Shown here: positions 4,201-25,333 of the stretch, in pieces
Position numbering within the stretch: the first letter of the stretch is position 1
Layout: every line of letters starts with the position of its first letter
Position numbers and translations under genes: made by a program
Assembly: GCA_016191845.1 (NCBI GenBank)
Contig: JACPVF010000016.1
Span: forward strand, 62,001 to 126,000
Origin: Chloroflexota bacterium
GTDB taxonomy: Bacteria; Chloroflexota; Anaerolineae; Anaerolineales; Villigracilaceae
Length of the DNA stretch: 64,000 bases
Direction: 5' to 3'
The notes under the pieces: generated by a model
The model's database searches: none
Told to the model about the DNA's origin: nothing
What the model saw: only the letters and a program-made list of their open reading frames with translations

Positions 4201-5284
4201 ATGCAAGATTTGCTCAATCGCTTGCAGGCCGCGCAGGACCTGACACAACAACTCCTGGTGCGCCTTTGACTTCCCTTCCAAGGAAGCTCAACTTTTCCAA
4301 TTAGAACGAGAAACCGAACAGCCTGAATTCTGGAATGACCCTGCCGCTGCCCAGCGCACGATGAAGACCGTATCGAGCCTGCGCGCGGATGTGGAGGGTT
4401 GGAACGCGCTTACCCGCCACCTGGCCGACCTGACCGATCTGGCGAAGCTCGATGACGAGTCGTTGCGTGCCGACCTGGAGTCCGAGGTCGCCAAGCTCGA
4501 AGCGGAACTCGACAAGCGTTCCTTTGCCGCCATGCTTTCAGGCAAATACGATGAAGACAGCGCGCTGCTGGCCATCCATGCAGGCGCGGGTGGCACCGAT
4601 TCGCAGGATTGGGCGGCCATGCTTCAGCGCATGTATCTGCGTTGGGCGGAAAGCCACAACTTCGAGACCGAGATCCTCGATTTCACTGACGGCGGCGAGG
4701 CGGGCACCAAGAGTGTGACCATCGCCGTCAACGGGCGTTACGCCTATGGGTATCTACGCTCCGAGAAGGGCGTGCATCGCCTGGTGCGACTCTCGCCCTT
4801 TGATGCGGCGCATCGTCGCCACACATCCTTTGCGCTGGTCGAAGTCCTGCCGCAGGACCCCATGGATGCGGCCGAGATCGAGATCAGCCCCAACGACGTC
4901 AAGATGGACGTCTTCCGCTCTTCGGGTGCAGGCGGACAGAACGTGCAGAAGAATGCCACCGCCGTGCGCCTGACGCACATCCCGACGGGGATTGTGGTTA
5001 CCTGTCAGAACGAGCGCTCGCAGTTGCAGAACCGCGAGAACGCCATGCGCGTCTTGCGTGCCCGTCTGCTCGAAATGAAGCAGGCTCAAAAGGATCAGGA
5101 GATCGCCGTCCTGCGCGGCGAATATACCAAGGCCGAGTGGGGCAGCCAGATCCGTTCGTACGTACTGCATCCCTACCAGATGGTCAAGGACCATCGTACC
5201 GACTATGAAACAGGCAACTCCCAGGCCGTCCTCGATGGTGACCTGGACGGGTTCATGGAAGCCTATCTAAAAAGCACAAACTAG
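4201..5284 (+). CDS. prfB: Peptide chain release factor 2, programmed +1 frameshift
   Basis: Terminates translation at UGA and UAA. Frame 1 starts at ATG 4201 (GGAGG at 4192-4196; an alternative ATG lies directly before it). It runs 22 codons to CTT TGA C. Slipping one base at 4267 continues with GAC TTC in the frame of the 307-residue track ORF. The coding sequence is therefore join(4201..4266,4268..5284), 360 residues, the normal RF2 length. The anticodon-mimic tripeptide SPF (VRLSPFDAAHRR) identifies RF2, and the peptidyl-hydrolase motif is GAGGQNVQK. The track entry 4361-5284 is only the downstream part. Confidence 0.95.
4257..4270 (+). other. RF2 autoregulatory frameshift site
   Basis: GGTG-CGC-CTT-TGA-C: in-frame UGA at codon 23 with the CUU slippery codon and a following C, as in E. 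coli prfB. The upstream Shine-Dalgarno-like stimulator is only GGTG, weaker than the usual AGGGGG, but at the right 3-base spacing. Confidence 0.92.
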
Positions 5285-5537: not shown

Positions 5538-7222
5538 TGACCACATTTCCCGAACGGCTGAAAAGCCTCTACACCCAAGACCCCGAGCGGGTTGCTATTC
5601 ATTTGCAGCAGGCGGGGCGTGACGACCTGCCCATCAGCTTTCACCAATTAATGTGCGGTGCGTCGGCCTATGCGCGCACCTATGCCCGCGAGGGACTTCA
5701 ACCTGGCGAAGTGGTGGTGCTGATCCTTCAGCATGGCGAGGATTTGATCTACGCTTTTTGGGGCGCCATCCTGCACGGCGCCATCCCCTCGATCATGCCT
5801 TTCCTGACCGAGAAGCTGTCGCCCGAGCGTTACCGCGCCGACCTGACCGCGCTGGTCTCGGTCACGCGCCCTGCGGGGATCGTGACCTATCCCGAGTTCG
5901 AGGATGAGGTCCATTCGGCGCTCAACGCGGATAGTTCGGTCCGCATCGTGGTGACCACCGACCGCCTGGAGCCTCAAGCGGATCCCGATTTCGCGGCGCT
6001 TTCTGGCTTCCAGCGCCAGCCCACCGATATTGTCCTGCTTCAGCATTCCTCTGGAACGACAGGCCTGCAAAAAGGTGTGGCGCTCGCGCATCAAGCGGTC
6101 TTCAATCAACTCAACGCCTACAGTGCCGCCCTGAGCCTCAACGCTGATGACGTGGTCGTCTCCTGGCTGCCGCTCTATCACGACATGGGACTGATCGCGG
6201 GCTTCCTGATGCCCATCCTTTCGGGTACCACGCTCGTGCTAAGTTCTCCGTTCGACTGGGTGCGTGCACCATACAAGCTGATGCACTCGGTGACGAAGTA
6301 CAAGGGCACGCTGTCCTGGCTGCCTAATTTTGCTTATAACTTCTGTGCGCAGAAGATCCGCGAGCGCAACCTCGAAGGCGTGGACCTCTCGACCTGGCGC
6401 GCCATCATCAACTGCTCTGAGCCTGTTCGCTGGGAGAGCCATCAGGCTTTCTACGAGAAATTCAAGGCCTATGGTCTGCGCCATGAGGCCTTACAGGCTT
6501 CCTACGCGATGGCGGAAAACGTCTTCGGCGTGACCCAATCGGATTTGTCGGAGCCGCCCATGGTCGAGGAGATCGACCGCGAAGCCTTCATGGTCGAGCG
6601 CGTGGCCAAAGCTCCCTTCGATGGCCGTCCTGCCATGAAGATGATGTCCTCAGGGAAACCGCTTTCCAATACACGCATCCGCGTGGTGAATGAAAAGGGC
6701 GAAGACCTGCCCGAGCGCATCATTGGCGAACTGGTCCTGCAAAGTGACTGTATGTTGACCGAGTATTACAATCGTCCCGATGCGACCGAAAAGGCGTTGA
6801 TCGGCGGTTGGTATTACACGGGTGATTATGGCTACGTCTCGCAGGGCGAAGTCTTCGTTTCGGGCCGCAAAAAGGACATGATCATTGTCGGCGGCAAGAA
6901 CGTGTATCCGCAGGATCTCGAGTCCCTCACATACGAGGTGCCTGGCGTCCATGCGGGGCGCTCGGTGGCCTTTGGTATGTTCGACGAAGAGGAGGGAACT
7001 GAGGAAGTGGTTATCATCGCCGAGGTTGACTCGGAGGATGAGGCCGAACGCCAGAAAGTGGCGGACGCCATCCGCCTGCATGTAACCAAGAATTCCGCCA
7101 TTGCATTGCGTCATGTCAAAGTGGTGGGCCCCAAGTGGATTGTCAAGACGTCCAGTGGAAAAACCGCCCGTTCCGCCAATAAAGAGAAGTTCCTTAAGGA
7201 ATTGGGACAACAAGGCGGCTAG
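5537..7222 (+). CDS. Fatty acyl-AMP ligase / acyl-ACP synthetase family
   Basis: ANL-superfamily adenylating enzyme, 561 residues. It has the nucleotide loop SSGTTGLQKG (171-180), the FAAL-like LPLYHDMGLI segment (about 211-220), the hinge region YYTGDYGY and SGRKKDMIIVGGKNVYP (A8), and a C-terminal catalytic Lys in KTSSGKTARS. By family it activates a carboxylic acid as acyl-AMP. The one-base overlap with the ACP gene indicates that the acyl group goes to that ACP rather than to CoA (inference). The following TPR-membrane and rhomboid genes are separated by only 7 and 9 bases. The final product is not evident. Confidence 0.88.
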   Translation: MTTFPERLKSLYTQDPERVAIHLQQAGRDDLPISFHQLMCGASAYARTYAREGLQPGEVVVLILQHGEDLIYAFWGAILHGAIPSIMPFLTEKLSPERYRADLTALVSVTRPAGIVTYPEFEDEVHSALNADSSVRIVVTTDRLEPQADPDFAALSGFQRQPTDIVLLQHSSGTTGLQKGVALAHQAVFNQLNAYSAALSLNADDVVVSWLPLYHDMGLIAGFLMPILSGTTLVLSSPFDWVRAPYKLMHSVTKYKGTLSWLPNFAYNFCAQKIRERNLEGVDLSTWRAIINCSEPVRWESHQAFYEKFKAYGLRHEALQASYAMAENVFGVTQSDLSEPPMVEEIDREAFMVERVAKAPFDGRPAMKMMSSGKPLSNTRIRVVNEKGEDLPERIIGELVLQSDCMLTEYYNRPDATEKALIGGWYYTGDYGYVSQGEVFVSGRKKDMIIVGGKNVYPQDLESLTYEVPGVHAGRSVAFGMFDEEEGTEEVVIIAEVDSEDEAERQKVADAIRLHVTKNSAIALRHVKVVGPKWIVKTSSGKTARSANKEKFLKELGQQGG

Positions 7223-7229
7223 GAGCAAA

Positions 7230-8090
7230 ATGTCCTCAGCGGATCAACTTCGACAGGCAGTGGCACTGGCGCGCGCAGGACGCAAGGTGGAGGCGCGCGA
7301 CATCCTGCTGGCCCTGGTGGATGAGGATCCGCACAATGAGATGGCCTGGATATGGCTATCGGGTTTGGTGGATACGCTCGATGACAAGATCATCGCCTGC
7401 GAAAATATTCTGACCATCAACCCGTCTAATGACAGGGTTCGGGCCTATCTGTCTCAACTGCTGGAAGAACAGAATCAATTGACCCGCCTGGAGGCGGCAG
7501 CGCAGGTTGTTGCCCCGCAGGTGGATCCTGTTGTAGATACCTCGCTGCGCTCCGCTGACCCTGACCCGTCCGTGCCAAGCTGGGAACTGGCGAAACATCA
7601 GGAAATGGAGGGGCAGTTCACCCAGGCCTTGGAGACGTATCGCAACCTGGCCTCTCTGACCAAGGACTCGCGTCAGTTCGACCGTATCTACAAAGAGATC
7701 ACGCGCCTCGAAAGCCTGCAGAAGGAGCGCATCGCGTACGTCGCGCCATCTTCGTCCATTGTTCGCATGGCCTTCGGTTGGCCATTGCTGTACCTATCCT
7801 TGGTTGTGGTTCAGGTTGGGGGTAAGTTCTTTATGTACCCTGCTTGGTATCTATGGCTGGGGATTCCCTTTGTGGCCTTCGGGAGCTTTCTAATTGCCCT
7901 GTCGGAGGTCAATGCCCGCCACCCGATCTGGAAGGCCCTGTTCGAGGAGGAGAATTCCAAGGGGTCGGGCTTTGCCCGTTTCATGGCGGGACTGATGGGG
8001 TGGATGTTGGTCATCTTTCCACACTTGATGCTAATTGGTGACTCTGTCCTTCGCTTGCGAAACTTCCAGATTCCTCCCATACCCCTTTAG
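7230..8090 (+). CDS. TPR-like protein with C-terminal membrane segments
   Basis: The track ORF starts inside the ligase gene; the ATG at 7230 follows AGGAG, giving 286 residues. Residues 1-75 form TPR-like helical pairs (QAVALARAGRKVEARDILLALVDEDP, WLSGLVDTL), and a second helical repeat lies near 125-160. The last 100 residues contain about three hydrophobic helices (MAFGWPLLYLSLVVV, PFVAFGSFLIAL, FMAGLMGWMLVIFPHLMLI). It probably acts as a membrane-anchored scaffold. Its position between the ligase and a rhomboid protease suggests a joint role at the membrane, but no function is established. Confidence 0.78.
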   Translation: MSSADQLRQAVALARAGRKVEARDILLALVDEDPHNEMAWIWLSGLVDTLDDKIIACENILTINPSNDRVRAYLSQLLEEQNQLTRLEAAAQVVAPQVDPVVDTSLRSADPDPSVPSWELAKHQEMEGQFTQALETYRNLASLTKDSRQFDRIYKEITRLESLQKERIAYVAPSSSIVRMAFGWPLLYLSLVVVQVGGKFFMYPAWYLWLGIPFVAFGSFLIALSEVNARHPIWKALFEEENSKGSGFARFMAGLMGWMLVIFPHLMLIGDSVLRLRNFQIPPIPL

Positions 8091-8099
8091 GGAATTCAT

Positions 8100-8786
8100 A
8101 TGCTGCCGCTCAGTGACACCGAGTCCAATCGCTACTCCTTCTTCCCGTTCATGACCTTTTTGCTCATTGCGGTCAACATCGGGATTCACCTGATCGTGAC
8201 CTTTACCCCGCAGCAGAACTTCTGGAAGTTCTTGATGTATTACGGCTTCACGCCGACCCTGATTGCGGGGGCGGTTGGCCCTGGCGTCATCTCCAATTTC
8301 ACATCCATCTTCTTGCACAGCGGCTGGACTCACCTGCTGGGCAACATGCTGCCGCTCTGGGTGTTTGGCCGCCGCGTGGAAGATGCCTGTGGCTCCTGGC
8401 GTTTTCTGGCTTTTTATCTTTTGGCGGGAACCTCGGCTAATCTGCTATTTGCCGTGATCCAACACGACTCGCCCATCCCGGGCATCGGGGCCAGTGGGGC
8501 CATCTTTGGGGTTATGGGCGCATATTTGTTGCTATATCCCACGGGGCGTATCCGTACACTGGTCTTCATCAGTTTTGTGCCGCTCTGGCCGCGTATTCGT
8601 GCCATTTGGATCGTGTTGTACTTTGTTGCGATCCAGATCATTCCCGCTGTCGACATTCTGCTCCACAAGGCGGATTACAGCGTGAATCACTGGGCCCACC
8701 TGGGCGGATTCTTTTCTGCGGTGTTCATCCTGCTCTTCATTCGCCCCGAAGCTTACGCCCGTTACGTGAGTGATACCCTCGTGTAG
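8100..8786 (+). CDS. Rhomboid-family intramembrane serine protease
   Basis: 228 residues with six hydrophobic segments. The catalytic Ser is Ser132 in GIGASGAIFGVMG, and the catalytic His is most likely His200 in NHWAHLGGFF. The HSGWTHLLGNM segment (about 73-83) is the conserved L1/TM2 region. It cleaves membrane-spanning substrates within the bilayer. It is the last gene of the ACP/ligase operon, 9 bases after the TPR gene, and is followed by a bidirectional terminator. Confidence 0.93.
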   Translation: MLPLSDTESNRYSFFPFMTFLLIAVNIGIHLIVTFTPQQNFWKFLMYYGFTPTLIAGAVGPGVISNFTSIFLHSGWTHLLGNMLPLWVFGRRVEDACGSWRFLAFYLLAGTSANLLFAVIQHDSPIPGIGASGAIFGVMGAYLLLYPTGRIRTLVFISFVPLWPRIRAIWIVLYFVAIQIIPAVDILLHKADYSVNHWAHLGGFFSAVFILLFIRPEAYARYVSDTLV

Positions 8787-8802
8787 TGGTCTCCGTTAAA
8801 CG

Positions 8803-8837
8803 AAAAGAGCGAGCCTTGACCAGAGGTTCGCTCTTTT
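8803..8837. terminator. Bidirectional terminator between rhomboid and S1 genes
   Basis: AAAAGAGCGA ... TCGCTCTTTT, a 10-bp stem with A and T flanks. It lies between convergent genes and can serve both. Confidence 0.85.
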
Positions 8838-8857
8838 GATTCTTGCCTTGATCGAGA

Positions 8858-9643
8858 TTAACCACCCGTGGGCAGACGCTTCTCGAGCGTGCGATTGAAG
8901 ATATCCTCGCTCTCCTGCGAAGCGCCAGACTTGCGTTTGGCCTTCTGCTGCTGATTGCGGGTCTTGGCGCGGCTCTGTGCCTGCATCCACGCGATTTGCA
9001 TGGCGGTCATCTCGGGCTCGCTGGAAACAGGCTCGGCTTCCATCTCGTAGACTTCATCCTGCTGTTTCTTGCCACGGCGTTTGCCGCCGCCACGTTCCTT
9101 GCGCTCTTCGCGTTCGGGCTTTTCCTCTTCCACGGCCTCGGGAAGCAGGGCTTTCATGCTCAAGCGGATCTGGCGCTTGCGGCGGTCAACTTCCAGCACT
9201 TTGGCTTCGACGTCATCGCCTTCCTTGACGACTTCGTTCGGGGTTTTGACGTAGCCACGGGTCAGTTCGCTGACATGGACCAGACCCGGGCGTTCCGCGC
9301 CAATGTCCACGAAGGCGCCGTAGGTTTCGATGCGCACGACCTTGCCCTTCACGACCATGTCGGGGTGGATTTCACGCCATTCGAGGCCGAGCGGCTCGAT
9401 CATGGTCAATTCGATGCGATCCTTCTTGACGCGGCGCACCCACACGTCAACGATCTGGCCTTCCTTGACCACGTCCTCGACCTTGTTGACGGCTTCCTTC
9501 TGCAGCTGCGAGATGTGGATCACGCCAGGCAAAACATTGCCGACGTCCACAAGAGCGCCGGCAAGGGTGGTCTTGACTACCTTTCCACTGAGTTTGGTCT
9601 TTGGTTCGAGCGCGCTCACGGGCGCGGTGTCAGTAGTAACCAT
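8858..9643 (-). CDS. S1 RNA-binding domain protein (two S1 domains)
   Basis: 261 residues. Two S1 OB-fold repeats: residues about 17-82 (LSGKVVKTTLAGALVDVG ... GVIHISQL) and about 98-167 (VVKGKVVRIETYGAFVDIG ... GLVHVSEL). A Lys/Arg/Glu-rich tail with RGGGKRRGKK and an extended helical C-terminus follow. It resembles short ribosomal protein S1-like proteins, which bind RNA and may assist translation or mRNA stability. It is expressed as a single gene from a strong promoter (TTGACG-N17-TATAAT). Two domains are too few for canonical rpsA, so I give no gene symbol. Confidence 0.9.
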   Translation of the reverse strand: MVTTDTAPVSALEPKTKLSGKVVKTTLAGALVDVGNVLPGVIHISQLQKEAVNKVEDVVKEGQIVDVWVRRVKKDRIELTMIEPLGLEWREIHPDMVVKGKVVRIETYGAFVDIGAERPGLVHVSELTRGYVKTPNEVVKEGDDVEAKVLEVDRRKRQIRLSMKALLPEAVEEEKPEREERKERGGGKRRGKKQQDEVYEMEAEPVSSEPEMTAMQIAWMQAQSRAKTRNQQQKAKRKSGASQESEDIFNRTLEKRLPTGG

Positions 9644-10319: not shown

Positions 10320-11477
10320 TTAGCCTGCTTTCAGGATATGGGTCAGGATGGTGGCGCCCGACCCGCCAATATTCTGCGCCATGCCGATTTTTGCGTCGGC
10401 TACCTGGGTGGGACCACACTCGCCGCGTAATTGTTGTGCCACTTCGACGATCTGATACATGCCTGTCGCGCCGACGGGATGTCCGCGGGCCTTGAGTCCG
10501 CCTCGGGTGCAGACGGGAATCCGCCCTGTAGGGCCGATCTCGTTATCGAGGCCGAGGCGCACTCCCTGGCCTCTTTCCGCGAATCCACACGCCTCAAGCG
10601 AAAGCACCGCCATGATCGAGAACGCATCATGGATCTCGAACACGTCGATGTCCTCGGGGGCCACGCCTGCCATCTCGTAAGCGCGTTTGGCCGAGGAATA
10701 AGCCGCCTGCAGAAAGAGCGGATCGCGGCGGCTGTGGATGGCGATGGTGTCTGTTGCCGAAGCCGACCCCGCCACCTTTACACGCGGACGGTTGGGTAGG
10801 TGCGCCACCTTTTCAGCGGGCACGAGAATGGCAGCTGCTGCGCCATCCCCTGTGGGAGAAGCGTCCAGCAGGCTGATGGGCGTGGCTACCATGCTGGCCT
10901 TCTCGAATCTCTCGGGCGTGACCTTTTCATGCAGGCGTGCGTAGGGATTGTGCATGGCATTGGCATGTGCGTTGATCGGGAAGGGTCCAAAATCGGCGTG
11001 ATTCCAACCGTACTCATGCATGTAACGGCGCATGACCAATGCATTCAGGCCCACGAATGAGACGCCCTGTTCCACCTCGTAATCGGCGTCGGCAGCGGTG
11101 GCCAGGGCGGCGGTCACGTCGTGGCCTGCCTTGTCGCTCATTTTTTCGACACCCACCACCAGCGCGGACTCAACCTCTCCCGAGGCGACAGCCATCAGCC
11201 CCGAACGGAAGGCAGCCGCACCCGAACCGCAGGCGGCCTCCAATTTGACGGCTTCCTGCCCCCACAGCCCGATCCAATCCGAGAAGAACGTCCCCAATTG
11301 GTTTTGTCCATTGACAATGGGGGAAAGCATATTGCCCACGTAGAGCGCGTCCACCTGTTGGAGGCCTGCATCCTGCAGGGCGGCAAAAGCGGCCTCACCG
11401 CCGATCTCGCGCAGGGATTTCTCCCAATGCTCGTCCACAACGGTCTGACCGATTCCTAAAATAGCGACTTCTCGCAT
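10320..11477 (-). CDS. Thiolase-family acetyl-CoA acetyltransferase (SCP2-like)
   Basis: 385 residues. The nucleophilic Cys is Cys83 in AACGSGAAAF, the general-base His lies in GGLKARGHPVGATG, and the C-terminal NIGGSGA glycine motif is present. The second catalytic Cys of classical thiolases is not clear in the C-terminal motif, as is common in the SCP2/archaeal-type thiolases. It probably condenses or cleaves 3-ketoacyl-CoA in acyl-CoA metabolism. There is no HMG-CoA synthase or DUF35 partner beside it, unlike the archaeal mevalonate arrangement. GAGGAACC lies before the ATG. Monocistronic. Confidence 0.85.
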   Translation of the reverse strand: MREVAILGIGQTVVDEHWEKSLREIGGEAAFAALQDAGLQQVDALYVGNMLSPIVNGQNQLGTFFSDWIGLWGQEAVKLEAACGSGAAAFRSGLMAVASGEVESALVVGVEKMSDKAGHDVTAALATAADADYEVEQGVSFVGLNALVMRRYMHEYGWNHADFGPFPINAHANAMHNPYARLHEKVTPERFEKASMVATPISLLDASPTGDGAAAAILVPAEKVAHLPNRPRVKVAGSASATDTIAIHSRRDPLFLQAAYSSAKRAYEMAGVAPEDIDVFEIHDAFSIMAVLSLEACGFAERGQGVRLGLDNEIGPTGRIPVCTRGGLKARGHPVGATGMYQIVEVAQQLRGECGPTQVADAKIGMAQNIGGSGATILTHILKAG

Positions 11478-17463: not shown

Positions 17464-17846
17464 TCCTGCTCCCCAGTGGGGAGGGTGGAAGGGGATGTTT
17501 GCGTGGTTTCCATATTCCCCAGGGGCCCTTCCAAATCATCCTCCAGCCCATCGTCCGCAAAATTAAGGCCACGGATGGCGTCCCACATTAATTGTTGTAT
17601 CTGTTCGGCTGTATATTCAGCCCTGACCTGAGCGGCGATCAGCGTGGTGAAGAGGCTTTCGAGCGCGACCTGCGCAGATTCTTCGGGCGGTAGGCCCGCC
17701 AACCTGGCGCGGAGGGTGGCCAGCAGGGAGAGGCTTTTTTCGATCTGCGGGCGTTTTTTCACGCCCCTGAAACCCGAGAGATCCCCCAGATCGGCCTGGA
17801 AGAAGGGGGCATACAGCGAGGTGGGAGAGGAGGGAGGCCTGGTCAT
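17460..17846 (-). CDS. Hypothetical protein (cassette gene 2)
   Basis: The track ORF is 177 residues, but the first 49 overlap the preceding gene and look non-coding, so the ATG at 17846 (128 residues) is the better start. There is no clear Shine-Dalgarno. The sequence is helical in the middle (KSLSLLATLRARLAGLPPEE, AALESLFTTLIAAQVRAEYTAEQ) with an acidic and Thr/Ser-rich tail. It overlaps the next gene by GTGA. No domain recognised. Confidence 0.5.
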   Translation of the reverse strand: MTRPPSSPTSLYAPFFQADLGDLSGFRGVKKRPQIEKSLSLLATLRARLAGLPPEESAQVALESLFTTLIAAQVRAEYTAEQIQQLMWDAIRGLNFADDGLEDDLEGPLGNMETTQTSPSTLPTGEQE

Positions 17847-20646: not shown

Positions 20647-21624
20647 ATGAAAGCGATTGTATACGAAAAATATGGGTCCCCTGATGTTATTCAATTCAAG
20701 GATATAGATAAACCCACGCCCAAGGATGATGAAGTCTTGATAAAAATTCATGCGGCAGCCGTAAATGCGTATGACTGGCATTTCCTGACTGCTGATATAT
20801 TCTTGATTCGATTCATGGGCGGAGGGCTTCTCAAACCCAAAAACACCAGACTAGGCGCCGACATGGCGGGACGGATTGAAGCAGTTGGCAAAAATGTCAA
20901 GCAGTTTCAGCCAGGTGATGAGGTGTTTGGGATGGTAAAAGGCAGTTTTGCCGAGTACACATGTGCTCCTGAAAACGCATTAGCATTGAAGCCAGTCCAT
21001 ACTTCGTTCAACGAAGCAGCAGCCATACCCATGGCGGCAATCACCGCTCTGCAAGGTCTGCGCGATGAAGGGCAGATTCGGGCAGGACAAAAGGTTTTAA
21101 TTAATGGCGCATCAGGTGGTGTGGGAACTTTTGCGGTGCAAATTGCCAAATCTTTCGGCGCTGAAGTGACCGCCGTGTGTAGCACCAGGAATTTGGAACA
21201 AGCACGCTCAATCGGGGCAGACCATGTTATTGATTACACCAAAGAGGACTTTACCCAAAATGGTCAACAGTATGATCTTGTTTTTGCGGCGAATGGTTAT
21301 CATTCGCTTTCAGCTTATAAACGCGCCTTAACTCCCAAGGGTATTTATATTATGGCTGGAGGTTCCATGGCGCAAATCTTCCAGTCCATGCTCATGGGGT
21401 CAATGATGTCAGAAACTGATGGCAGAAAAATGTCAGGCGTCAGCGCAAAACGAAGCCAAGATGACCTGGTTTTTATAAAAGAACTTTTTGAAGCAGGAAA
21501 AGTAAAATCCATTATTGATAGACAGTATCTGTTAAGTGAAACTGCTGAGGCGCTTCGGTATCTTGGAGCAGGACATGCCAGAGGAAAAATAGTAATATCT
21601 GTGGAAAGCAACAACAAAACCTAA
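20647..21624 (+). CDS. Zinc-less MDR-family NAD(P)H quinone oxidoreductase
   Basis: 325 residues, medium-chain dehydrogenase/reductase family. N-terminal GroES-like domain (MKAIVYEKYGSPDVIQFKDI ... AAAVNAYDWHFL) and Rossmann domain with INGASGGVGTFAVQIAKSFGAEV (about 155-177). The Cys/His zinc ligands of alcohol dehydrogenases are missing, pointing to a quinone or enone reductase using NADPH. AT-rich composition and attC-like spacers on both sides suggest a mobile cassette gene. The precise substrate is unknown. Confidence 0.88.
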   Translation: MKAIVYEKYGSPDVIQFKDIDKPTPKDDEVLIKIHAAAVNAYDWHFLTADIFLIRFMGGGLLKPKNTRLGADMAGRIEAVGKNVKQFQPGDEVFGMVKGSFAEYTCAPENALALKPVHTSFNEAAAIPMAAITALQGLRDEGQIRAGQKVLINGASGGVGTFAVQIAKSFGAEVTAVCSTRNLEQARSIGADHVIDYTKEDFTQNGQQYDLVFAANGYHSLSAYKRALTPKGIYIMAGGSMAQIFQSMLMGSMMSETDGRKMSGVSAKRSQDDLVFIKELFEAGKVKSIIDRQYLLSETAEALRYLGAGHARGKIVISVESNNKT

Positions 21625-21775
21625 TATTGCGTGCACCCGACGCTAGGGAGCCTGGTGTAATCTCAAACAGTTTTCTACGTCTTATCATTTTTCACATCGG
21701 ATGGCGGGACGCCGTCCCAGCCCCAGCGCAAGCACTCCGCAGAGAGAACACGGGGCGTGTGCGGACTGTTAGTTG
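21616..21775 (+). other. Long imperfect palindrome, attC-like spacer
   Basis: After the reductase stop: ACCTAAT-ATTGCGTGCACCCG-ACGCTAGGGA, then about 100 bases later CGTCCCAGC, CGGGGCGTGTGC and a final GTTAGTTGC. The two ends are imperfectly complementary (GCTaGGGA with TCCCAGC; GTGCACCCG with CGGGGCGTG), and the outer elements resemble degenerate RYYYAAC and GTTRRRY integron cores. The size (about 150) fits long attC sites. No integrase gene is in the window. Confidence 0.35.
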
Positions 21776-22821: not shown

Positions 22822-22850
22822 TTGAAAAAATAGAACACGAGTTCTAAAAT
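22822..22850 (+). promoter_or_regulatory. SOS-type promoter with LexA box
   Basis: TTGAAA, 17 bases, TAAAAT, with AGAAC-ACGA-GTTCT (22832-22845) filling the spacer. GAACN4GTTC is the LexA box of Gram-positive-type and several Chloroflexota LexA proteins, and a spacer position would block RNA polymerase. A hairpin (AACAGCCA/TGGCTGTT, 22858-22878) starts the leader. The promoter points at the broken small gene at 22899. Confidence 0.65.
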
Positions 22851-22898: not shown

Positions 22899-23072
22899 AT
22901 GCCTCTTCCACAAATCACTTATCAGTTGCCGCTCGAACTGGACCTGCCCGCAGCTGAAGAAGAAGGCGGAGTCGGACAGGATGAAGCCCGCCAGCGAAGC
23001 GAAGTATTCTGCAAGGCCCTGGAGGCCATGTTTGGCAAGAGTGGTGAACGGGTGGCGATGGGATACTTCTAG
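22899..23072 (+). pseudogene. Short SOS-controlled ORF interrupted by an amber codon
   Basis: Too short for the ORF track. ATG 22899 (AGG upstream) gives 57 residues starting MPLPQITYQLPLELDLP and ending at TAG. The same frame continues for 21 further codons (NYDPADISGVTCPLQ...) to a second TAG at 23136-23138, so the gene looks broken by a point mutation or truncated. It sits directly behind the LexA-box promoter and upstream of the polymerase fragment at 23758. It may be the accessory small gene of a lost SOS polymerase operon. Confidence 0.45.
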
Positions 23073-23160
23073 AATTATGATCCTGCCGACATCAGCGGCG
23101 TGACTTGCCCCCTTCAGGTTGCGCCTGTCTTAGGATAGCTCTCAGAAAAATGGGCTATGG

Positions 23161-23189
23161 TTGTAATCTGCAATTGGCAGACGTATAAT
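23161..23189 (+). promoter_or_regulatory. Promoter of lipoprotein gene at 23245
   Basis: TTGTAA, 17 bases, TATAAT. The start codon lies 55 bases downstream, after GGAGG. Confidence 0.6.
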
Positions 23190-23244
23190 CTTAACCAGAG
23201 TATGAGAGGGATTTTTTCGCGCAATCCATTTGTGGAGGCCGAAG

Positions 23245-23664
23245 ATGAGACAGATCCTTTGCGCCATGTTGGCAGTAGTCCTGGTGACCACTGCCTGTGC
23301 GTTTTTCGGGGGAAACCAACCGACCCAGCCCAAAGCAGGTCATTGGGAGGGAAGTGGTCCAACCATATCCTTCAATATCACAGAGGATGGGCAACTGACC
23401 AATCTTCAAATGACCGTTCCTTATGGAGGCACAACCTGTAAGCTCTATATTCCCTCGATAACGGTCCAGACGGATTACTCGTTCACCCTGGATTTCACAT
23501 CTGCAGAGACGCTTTCCATGGGGTACATTATGGGCGTATTTCACGGCACGAAGGCCTCGGGCAAGTACCTGATTAAGATGTGCGCACAAAGCATCAGTTT
23601 TGTCCCTGGGGAGGACAAGGACAGAGACTGGAGCGCCGAGTGGAAGAGCAATTCGACACCCTAG
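23245..23664 (+). CDS. Small lipoprotein
   Basis: The ATG at 23245 has GGAGG 9 bases upstream and is preferred over the track start. The product is 139 residues. The signal MRQILCAMLAVVLVTTAC has the lipobox VTTAC, and the mature domain (GHWEGSGPTISFNITEDGQLTNL ...) is a beta-rich fold of the type seen in small secreted or lipid-binding proteins. It has its own promoter. It lies between a broken SOS-controlled ORF and a polymerase scrap, so it may have entered an older polB locus. Function unknown. Confidence 0.72.
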   Translation: MRQILCAMLAVVLVTTACAFFGGNQPTQPKAGHWEGSGPTISFNITEDGQLTNLQMTVPYGGTTCKLYIPSITVQTDYSFTLDFTSAETLSMGYIMGVFHGTKASGKYLIKMCAQSISFVPGEDKDRDWSAEWKSNSTP

Positions 23665-23757
23665 TTATGCGTGTGAGATAGGCTTGCGTCCGAAATCCAA
23701 CCCCCGTATCTATGAGCTCAGCGAAAACATGCGGACCACCCTTGCACAGCCCTCATA

Positions 23758-23931
23758 GGTGGACCTTGTGGATCCTGCCGCGCCCGAAGCGTGCTGGATG
23801 CTGCGCCAGCTGGAGACAGCGGGCCAGAGTCTGCGGCCTGGCCAGCATGTGAAGTGGATCTACACGTGTGGGAAGGTCCGCACGAAGTGGACCTGGAGCG
23901 GTATGCGAAACTGCTGTTGAGGCTGTGGTGA
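23758..23931 (+). pseudogene. C-terminal fragment of a family B DNA polymerase
   Basis: Two reading frames together give the end of a PolB-type polymerase: DPAAPEACWMLRQLETAGQ, LRPGQHVKWIYT in one frame, then after a one-base shift near 23867 VWEGPHEVDLERYAKLLLRLW and stop. The GQHV(K/R)(W/F)xYT and DxxRYxxLLLR segments are what I expect at the C-terminus of bacterial family B polymerases. The exonuclease, palm and most of the thumb are missing. No start or ribosome-binding site. Clear decay product. Confidence 0.6.
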
Positions 23932-24696: not shown

Positions 24697-24741
24697 GAAT
24701 CGCCTAGACGGGGGAGCATTTTGTATACAAAAGGAGTTCAG

Positions 24742-25200
24742 ATGAGGCCAAAAGGATTTTTGTATCAAGCAGCAGGCGTTGTGCTGATTGCCCTGTTCCT
24801 GGTCGGATGCGGTGCACTAACGGCGGGCACTTCGAATCCAAATGGACAGCCTGCTGCCGCCGATGAATATGTGCTTGCGCCTATTGATTGTATTGTTTCT
24901 CATTCCAGTTGGAGAGGGACCGTGGTCGCCCCAGGCGTCACCAAGCCTACCAGTGGTACCGTCACTGCCTTCGAGTGCAATGGGAAAGCTGTGGAACTTA
25001 CAAGCGATACGATCACCGATGGATATATCGAGACCAAGGATTTCGGAAAGATCGGCATCCGTTTTGCAAGTCAGGTCCAAACGATTGGGGCGGGCGAGTA
25101 CATGGACGTTGCAGAAGGGATCTCTTTGCCTGAGCCAGCCATTGAAGTCTATGTCCTGAGTTCCGTGTTGAAGGACTTTACAACTCAATATTCAAAGTGA
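24742..25200 (+). CDS. Lipoprotein
   Basis: The track ORF starts at a TTG; AAAGGAG lies just before the ATG at 24742, giving 152 residues. Signal MRPKGFLYQAAGVVLIALFLVGC with lipobox FLVGC. The mature part of about 120 residues has two Cys and beta-like segments without a recognised domain. It is flanked on both sides by copies of the GGGCGAGGC palindrome and followed by a strong terminator. Confidence 0.75.
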   Translation: MRPKGFLYQAAGVVLIALFLVGCGALTAGTSNPNGQPAAADEYVLAPIDCIVSHSSWRGTVVAPGVTKPTSGTVTAFECNGKAVELTSDTITDGYIETKDFGKIGIRFASQVQTIGAGEYMDVAEGISLPEPAIEVYVLSSVLKDFTTQYSK

Positions 25201-25231
25201 GAATTGGGGAATTAAGAGATTGCTTCCAACT

Positions 25232-25257
25232 GGGGCGAGGTGTCGCCTCGCCCCTAC
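25232..25257. repeat. Dispersed palindrome GGGGCGAGG...CCTCGCCCCTAC, copy 2
   Basis: GGGGCGAGGTGTCGCCTCGCCCC, a near-perfect palindrome in the same family as 24672-24696, 3 bases before the terminator. Confidence 0.72.
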
Positions 25258-25283: not shown

Positions 25284-25333
25284 AACTTTGTCTGCTTGTT
25301 TTAAAAACGGGTGAAGGTCGGTGCGGTGCAATG

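Follow-up and report, generated by a model that had tools for sequence, protein, structure and literature searches.

A polymerase relic in a Chloroflexota contig

The window analysed here is a stretch of 64,000 nucleotides (C15:62001-126000) from a Chloroflexota genome of 4.63 Mb in 18 contigs. At the locus under study a LexA-type box, an orphan ORF and a lipoprotein ORF precede a relic of 255 bases (window 23677-23931), downstream of which lies a second lipoprotein gene with a paralogue on contig C12 (Table 1). The initial annotation had described positions 23758-23931 as a frameshifted scrap of the C-terminus of a family B DNA polymerase. On the plus strand this region does encode GQHVKWIYT in frame 1 and PHEVDLERYAKLLLRLW in frame 3, and BLAST aligns the fragment to the C-terminus of the intact PolB on C12 over 85 bp at 91% identity (E 3e-28) and over a further 40 bp at 82%, a similarity that is not due to chance. 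Fifty-six residues assembled from the fragment match the same C-terminus and, more weakly, that of the polymerase in one other genome of the genus. The change of frame stems from a 37-bp deletion. What the annotation had delimited was nevertheless incomplete, since the relic begins upstream of 23758, at 23677, and contains in addition pieces of a LuxR-type gene and of iRadA.

Alignment of the relic to the intact C12 operon, with jumps allowed, resolves it into seven colinear pieces in operon order: two from the LuxR-type gene, two from iRadA and three from PolB2, including its last codons and stop. Relic and intact copy are 92.1% identical over 252 comparable sites (84–100% for individual pieces); over the same sites the relic is 77.0% and the intact copy 82.5% identical to the operon of a sister species. 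The junction that follows the N-terminal iRadA piece falls in a near-repeat common to both ends. A Pfam search of the relic and the small ORFs returned nothing useful, and the genome holds no copy of the relic sequence besides the C12 operon; we therefore dropped the idea of a multi-copy mini-element. An assembly artefact or a chance similarity, which a draft genome in 18 contigs might invite, is barely credible for pieces that have diverged by ~8% from the intact copy while keeping strict colinearity with it, reach E values down to 3e-28 and lie inside a 446-kb contig.

Only 255 of ~3540 bases are left in the window copy, in mixed frames, and it does not amount to a functional operon. The mosaic might instead serve as a small functional element that arose from the operon, for instance a small RNA induced in the SOS response or a gene for a short peptide: it has kept the operon order and the last stop codon, and an ORF of 53 aa can be read through it at 23759-23920. 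Its mixed reading frames and lack of a LexA box of its own, together with its occurrence as a single copy for which no counterpart was found in the sister species, make this very improbable. The relic is probably non-functional and being erased.

Table 1. Features at the relic locus, in window coordinates. L014rc denotes the reverse complement of C12:10000-24000.
Feature	Position	Strand	C12 counterpart and identity	Remarks
LexA-type box TAGAACACGAGTTCTA	22831..22846	.		Spacer of TTGAAA-17-TAAAAT; probably not part of the relic
57-aa orphan ORF behind the window box	22899..23072	+		Shine-Dalgarno-like GAGGT; no family found
Left part of block: terminator-like repeat and promoter with GGCAGACGTATAATCTT	23095..23192	+	L014rc 4796-4898, 66% over 104 bp	
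Lipoprotein ORF adjoining the relic on the left	23245..23664	+		Lipobox (VTTAC); no Pfam match
LuxR-type (GerE) first-gene relic, codons ~10-34	23677..23748	+	L014rc 5567-5625 (93%), 5635-5647 (100%)	Internal 9-bp deletion
iRadA N-terminal relic (GWTLWILPRP)	23749..23780	+	L014rc 6078-6109, 84%	BLAST match extends to 23791 at 86%
iRadA C-terminal relic (PEARWMLDQL)	23781..23799	+	L014rc 6474-6492, 95%	
PolB2 C-terminal relic (LRQLETAGQSLRPGQHVKWIYT)	23800..23881	+	L014rc 8800-8881, 91.5%	85-bp match, E 3e-28
PolB2 C-terminal relic (EVDLERYA)	23883..23906	+	L014rc 8920-8943, 96%	Past the frame-changing 37-bp deletion
PolB2 last codons and stop (LRLW*)	23909..23931	+	L014rc 9081-9103, 91%	
Right part of block: paralogue of the lipoprotein gene and trailer downstream of the C12 operon	24721..25254	+	L014rc 10335-10867, 84% over 534 bp	

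The intact operon and its polymerase

The single intact family B polymerase of the genome is encoded on contig C12, in an operon where a LexA box precedes a LuxR-type gene, iRadA, a gene for a small, putatively helical protein (PPB2-like) and PolB2. The corresponding proteins are a 135 aa LuxR-type HTH protein, proteins of 172 aa and 94 aa, and the 749-aa polymerase. The box, TAGAACACACGTTCTA with its core at L014rc 5511, sits exactly within the spacer of a TTGACT-17-TATAAT promoter. The LuxR-type gene comes first (L014 8060-8464, minus strand), and iRadA, the putative PPB2 gene and PolB2 occupy one strand at L014rc 6062-6577, 6577-6861 and 6854-9103, an order that recurs in the sister species and in others.

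Family assignments were made for each product. The 135-aa protein matches Pfam GerE (E 2.8e-15). No Pfam model matches the 172-aa protein. RadA structures are, however, found with a profile built from 20 of its relatives (E 1e-8), and the structure predicted for the protein, with a mean pLDDT of 87.5, matches DMC1, RadA and RAD51 (E 1.1e-6). By eye, no Walker A motif was visible in the protein sequence or in the consensus of the family alignment, and we assign the protein as iRadA, a predicted RadA homologue without a working ATPase site. The 94-aa protein matches no family model above cut-off; it occupies the PPB2 position, is conserved in related loci and is on this positional ground a putative PPB2-like protein, PPB2 being known as a helical protein of ~90 aa.

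The polymerase matches the PolB2-type model PRK05761.1-2 of NCBIfam with an E value of 2e-114 and 383 bits, a score below the curated cut-off of 516, whereas Pol II models reach at most 66 bits against it. In its motif C, LYVDG, another residue replaces the first aspartate of DxD, and its motif A, DFxSMYPS, is retained. These sequence features place the C12 polymerase in the archaeal-type PolB2 group and not in the Pol II group, so the analogy with SOS-induced DNA polymerase II that had been proposed for the lost operon does not hold for the enzyme, and a comparison with Pol II is at most regulatory. At that level E. coli DNA polymerase II (polB) is likewise a family B enzyme under LexA control, here a predicted control, with an accessory role in damage; the two differ in family-B group and in operon partners. 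A further difference lies in the exonuclease domain, which is reported to be inactive in the PolB2 group (PMC12926913).

The operon iRadA-PPB2-PolB2 has been described as the PolB2 mutasome (Makarova 2014, PMC4104785; Timinskas 2025, PMC11791011). The C12 locus resembles it in its gene content, with a putative PPB2 between iRadA and PolB2 in what is the sole arrangement seen in bacteria, in an iRadA with a RadA fold and no visible Walker A motif, in the replaced first DxD aspartate (LYVDG) of its PolB2, and in a predicted link to DNA damage. It differs in the LexA operator directly upstream, with lexA located elsewhere, and in the LuxR-type gene that comes first in most members of the class; a term search of the main text of PMC11791011 found neither feature. 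The window copy departs from the described mutasome further, as a relic of 255 bases.

Deletions at short repeats

The copy in the window has lost ~3.3 of 3.5 kb through six deletions, and short direct repeats occur at the deletion ends in significant excess over chance. Exact microhomology at the six junctions measures 4, 2, 7, 4, 8 and 3 bases, a sum of 28 bases compared with 8.9 expected, and none of 5000 random draws was as high. The excess stems mainly from two junctions, and the weakest has a microhomology of 2 bases; the pieces being short, exact junction positions are uncertain by a few bases.

Origin of the relic

The sequences on either side of the relic have paralogues at the C12 locus (Table 1). 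The 17-bp promoter element on the left occurs at only two sites in the genome, one at each locus, even when up to 2 mismatches are allowed. At the syntenic place of the sister species, homology to the window ends at 17826 and resumes at 25328, and the segment between is absent. Given these flanking paralogues and the absence of the segment from the sister species, we infer that the region goes back to a duplicated or received block that has since decayed. Several observations count against this: the block is interrupted, the copy lacks the PLAT gene and has other lipoprotein genes in its place, further lipoprotein genes separate the relic from the 159-aa lipoprotein, and similarity on the left side is only 66% over 104 bp. 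We nonetheless put at about 90% the probability that the relic is a paralogue of the PolB2 mutasome operon of this genome, dead and reduced by internal deletions, and that it derives from a duplicated or received block. In the course that we propose, the copied block would have comprised the promoter and PLAT-gene region, the whole operon with its LexA box, and the downstream lipoprotein gene, and could have come from within the genome or from a close relative; the copy would then have undergone the six deletions, losing its own LexA box with the rest.

In an alternative reading the relic is what remains of an operon acquired from another strain of the same or a near species, perhaps an unsampled sister species, and decayed afterwards. 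That the sister species lacks the segment at the syntenic position, which lies in a variable region, is consistent with acquisition, as is the patchy occurrence of the operon in the class, where iRadA is present in 41 of 297 genomes. The lipoprotein and promoter paralogues on both sides are colinear with the C12 locus of the same genome, which argues for intragenomic duplication, and we consider acquisition the less probable of the two.

The segment 17826-25328 is itself variable: the sister species has different genes between the same flanking genes. An intergenic repeat of ~110 bases at 21619-21730 recurs many times in the sister species, and this genome has several copies.

The window LexA box and its neighbours

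The initial annotation had combined the polymerase scrap with a LexA-type box upstream, proposing a lost LexA-controlled PolB operon with a lipoprotein gene now in its middle. The box is real, being one of five exact 16-mers of this form in 4.63 Mb and lying in a fair promoter between TTGAAA and TAAAAT, and the lipoprotein gene between box and scrap is a real ORF. The proposal was right in kind, as intact relatives of the operon do carry such a box, but probably not in taking the window box as the promoter of this copy.

That the box at 22831 was the original promoter of the lost operon, the lipoprotein gene having been inserted later between them, would fit its location 846 bases upstream of the relic on the same strand and the fact that intact operons begin with such a box. 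Against this, the flanks of the window box show no similarity to the intact operon promoter, and the phase of the box between -35 and -10 differs. The 17-mer element, which at the intact locus lies upstream of the PLAT gene and hence of the operon LexA box, sits in the window between the box and the relic, and the 5' end of the LuxR-type gene, expected behind the box, is missing there. In the intact locus, the place of the adjoining lipoprotein ORF is taken by the PLAT gene and the LexA box. With the window box outside the block, to its left, its flanks dissimilar and its phase different, a connection between box and relic is improbable; the operon copy's own box was lost by deletion. Compared with other SOS loci, the window box region shows likeness limited to the box and its AT-rich flanks.

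The 57-aa ORF behind the box had no relatives in 61 genomes at E 0.01. Weak matches in 301 genomes of the order (best E 6e-4) contain internal stop codons and were judged chance, and no LexA box was found near those that were checked.

Predicted LexA control of PolB2 operons

Both the C12 operon and the window have the exact box TAGAACNNNNGTTCTA. The lexA gene of this genome, which is located away from the C12 PolB2 operon, has CAGAACAGGCGTTCGG with an exact core in its own promoter, and recA has a one-mismatch version, CTGAACATCTGTGCTA. Genome-wide, one-mismatch boxes are not in excess (16, compared with 15 in the reversed control), and we therefore relied only on exact boxes and on conservation upstream of genes.

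Such conservation is evident in the class. Exact GAACNNNNGTTC occurs between -300 and +30 of the first gene in 22 of 30 class iRadA loci, where 0.13 would be expected from mononucleotide shuffling. Among 65 operons on named Chloroflexota contigs, 41 have an exact box between -150 and +20 of the first gene; in 15 others the same interval holds a site with one mismatch, some of these by chance. In a matched control region 1.9 kb downstream of the polymerase, the box is found in 2 of 64. The PolB2 loci of Longilinea arvoryzae KOME-1 and Levilinea saccharolytica KIBI-1 have no exact box. The 30-locus and 65-operon sets overlap in some public genomes and are thus not independent tests. The relic is a PolB remnant from an operon of several genes, and its intact relatives show the order of LexA box, small ORF(s) and polB that the initial annotation had proposed to look for; neither of the outcomes that the annotation had named as refuting it was observed.

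Our literature search found no relevant paper on LexA in Anaerolineae or Chloroflexi. Judged by its operator sequence, the C12 operon is most likely repressed by LexA and induced on DNA damage. Cleavage of LexA after such damage would switch on the working copy, whose product, as published work on archaeal PolB2 suggests, may be a translesion polymerase complex of PolB2, an inactive RadA and a small helical partner.

Elsewhere in this genome, at L017 and L018, exact LexA-type boxes precede the genes of two predicted membrane proteins of ~245 aa that resemble each other. On the minus strand of L030, near 1501, a one-mismatch LexA-type box is found directly 5' of a gene for a 386-aa protein with the cysteine motif CERDCFYC, possibly a radical SAM enzyme.

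The LuxR-type first gene

Of 68 named loci, 50 carry the LuxR-type gene upstream of PolB2. In each of 13 genomes searched, a profile of its family had a single full-length match, which invariably lay in the PolB2 operon (E 1e-37 to 1e-57); the other matches listed for these genomes cover mainly the HTH and have E values of 1e-15 or weaker. The 13 genomes were picked for having the operon, so the result indicates that the family is not a common paralogue in them and carries no implication of its absence elsewhere. A ribbon-helix-helix N-terminus was considered for the LuxR-type protein and found unsupported, the fold search having matched mainly the HTH domain.

A term search found neither LuxR nor Chloroflexi in the main text of PMC11791011. 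The gene is apparently an undescribed fourth gene of the putatively LexA-controlled PolB2 operon in these bacteria, and its product could either regulate the operon or belong to the complex. We lean slightly towards a more general reading, in which the PolB2 mutasome of Anaerolineae-type Chloroflexota is a LexA-controlled four-gene operon whose LuxR-type first gene, found once per genome and only there in the genomes searched, would encode a dedicated, undescribed regulator or subunit of SOS mutagenesis.

Discussion

The layout of the PolB2 operon is analogous to that of the ImuA-ImuB-DnaE2 cassette, which is LexA-controlled and combines a RecA-like non-recombinase with an error-prone polymerase. 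The polymerase of that cassette belongs to the C family and PolB2 to the B family, and no relation in polymerase sequence is expected. Bacterial PolB2 has so far been tied to the SOS response because lexA genes are reported near its operons (PMC11791011). In most of the Chloroflexota cases examined here the LexA operator itself lies upstream of the PolB2 operon, and a conserved extra gene stands first.

The mutagenic role proposed for the operon follows published work on archaeal PolB2, as cited in PMC11791011. The relic illustrates the erosion of a surplus mutator operon through deletions that often fall at short repeats. The intact operon offers a direct way to ask whether PolB2, an archaeal-type polymerase with a relative that acts as the mutator in Sulfolobus, may have this role in the SOS response of the phylum.
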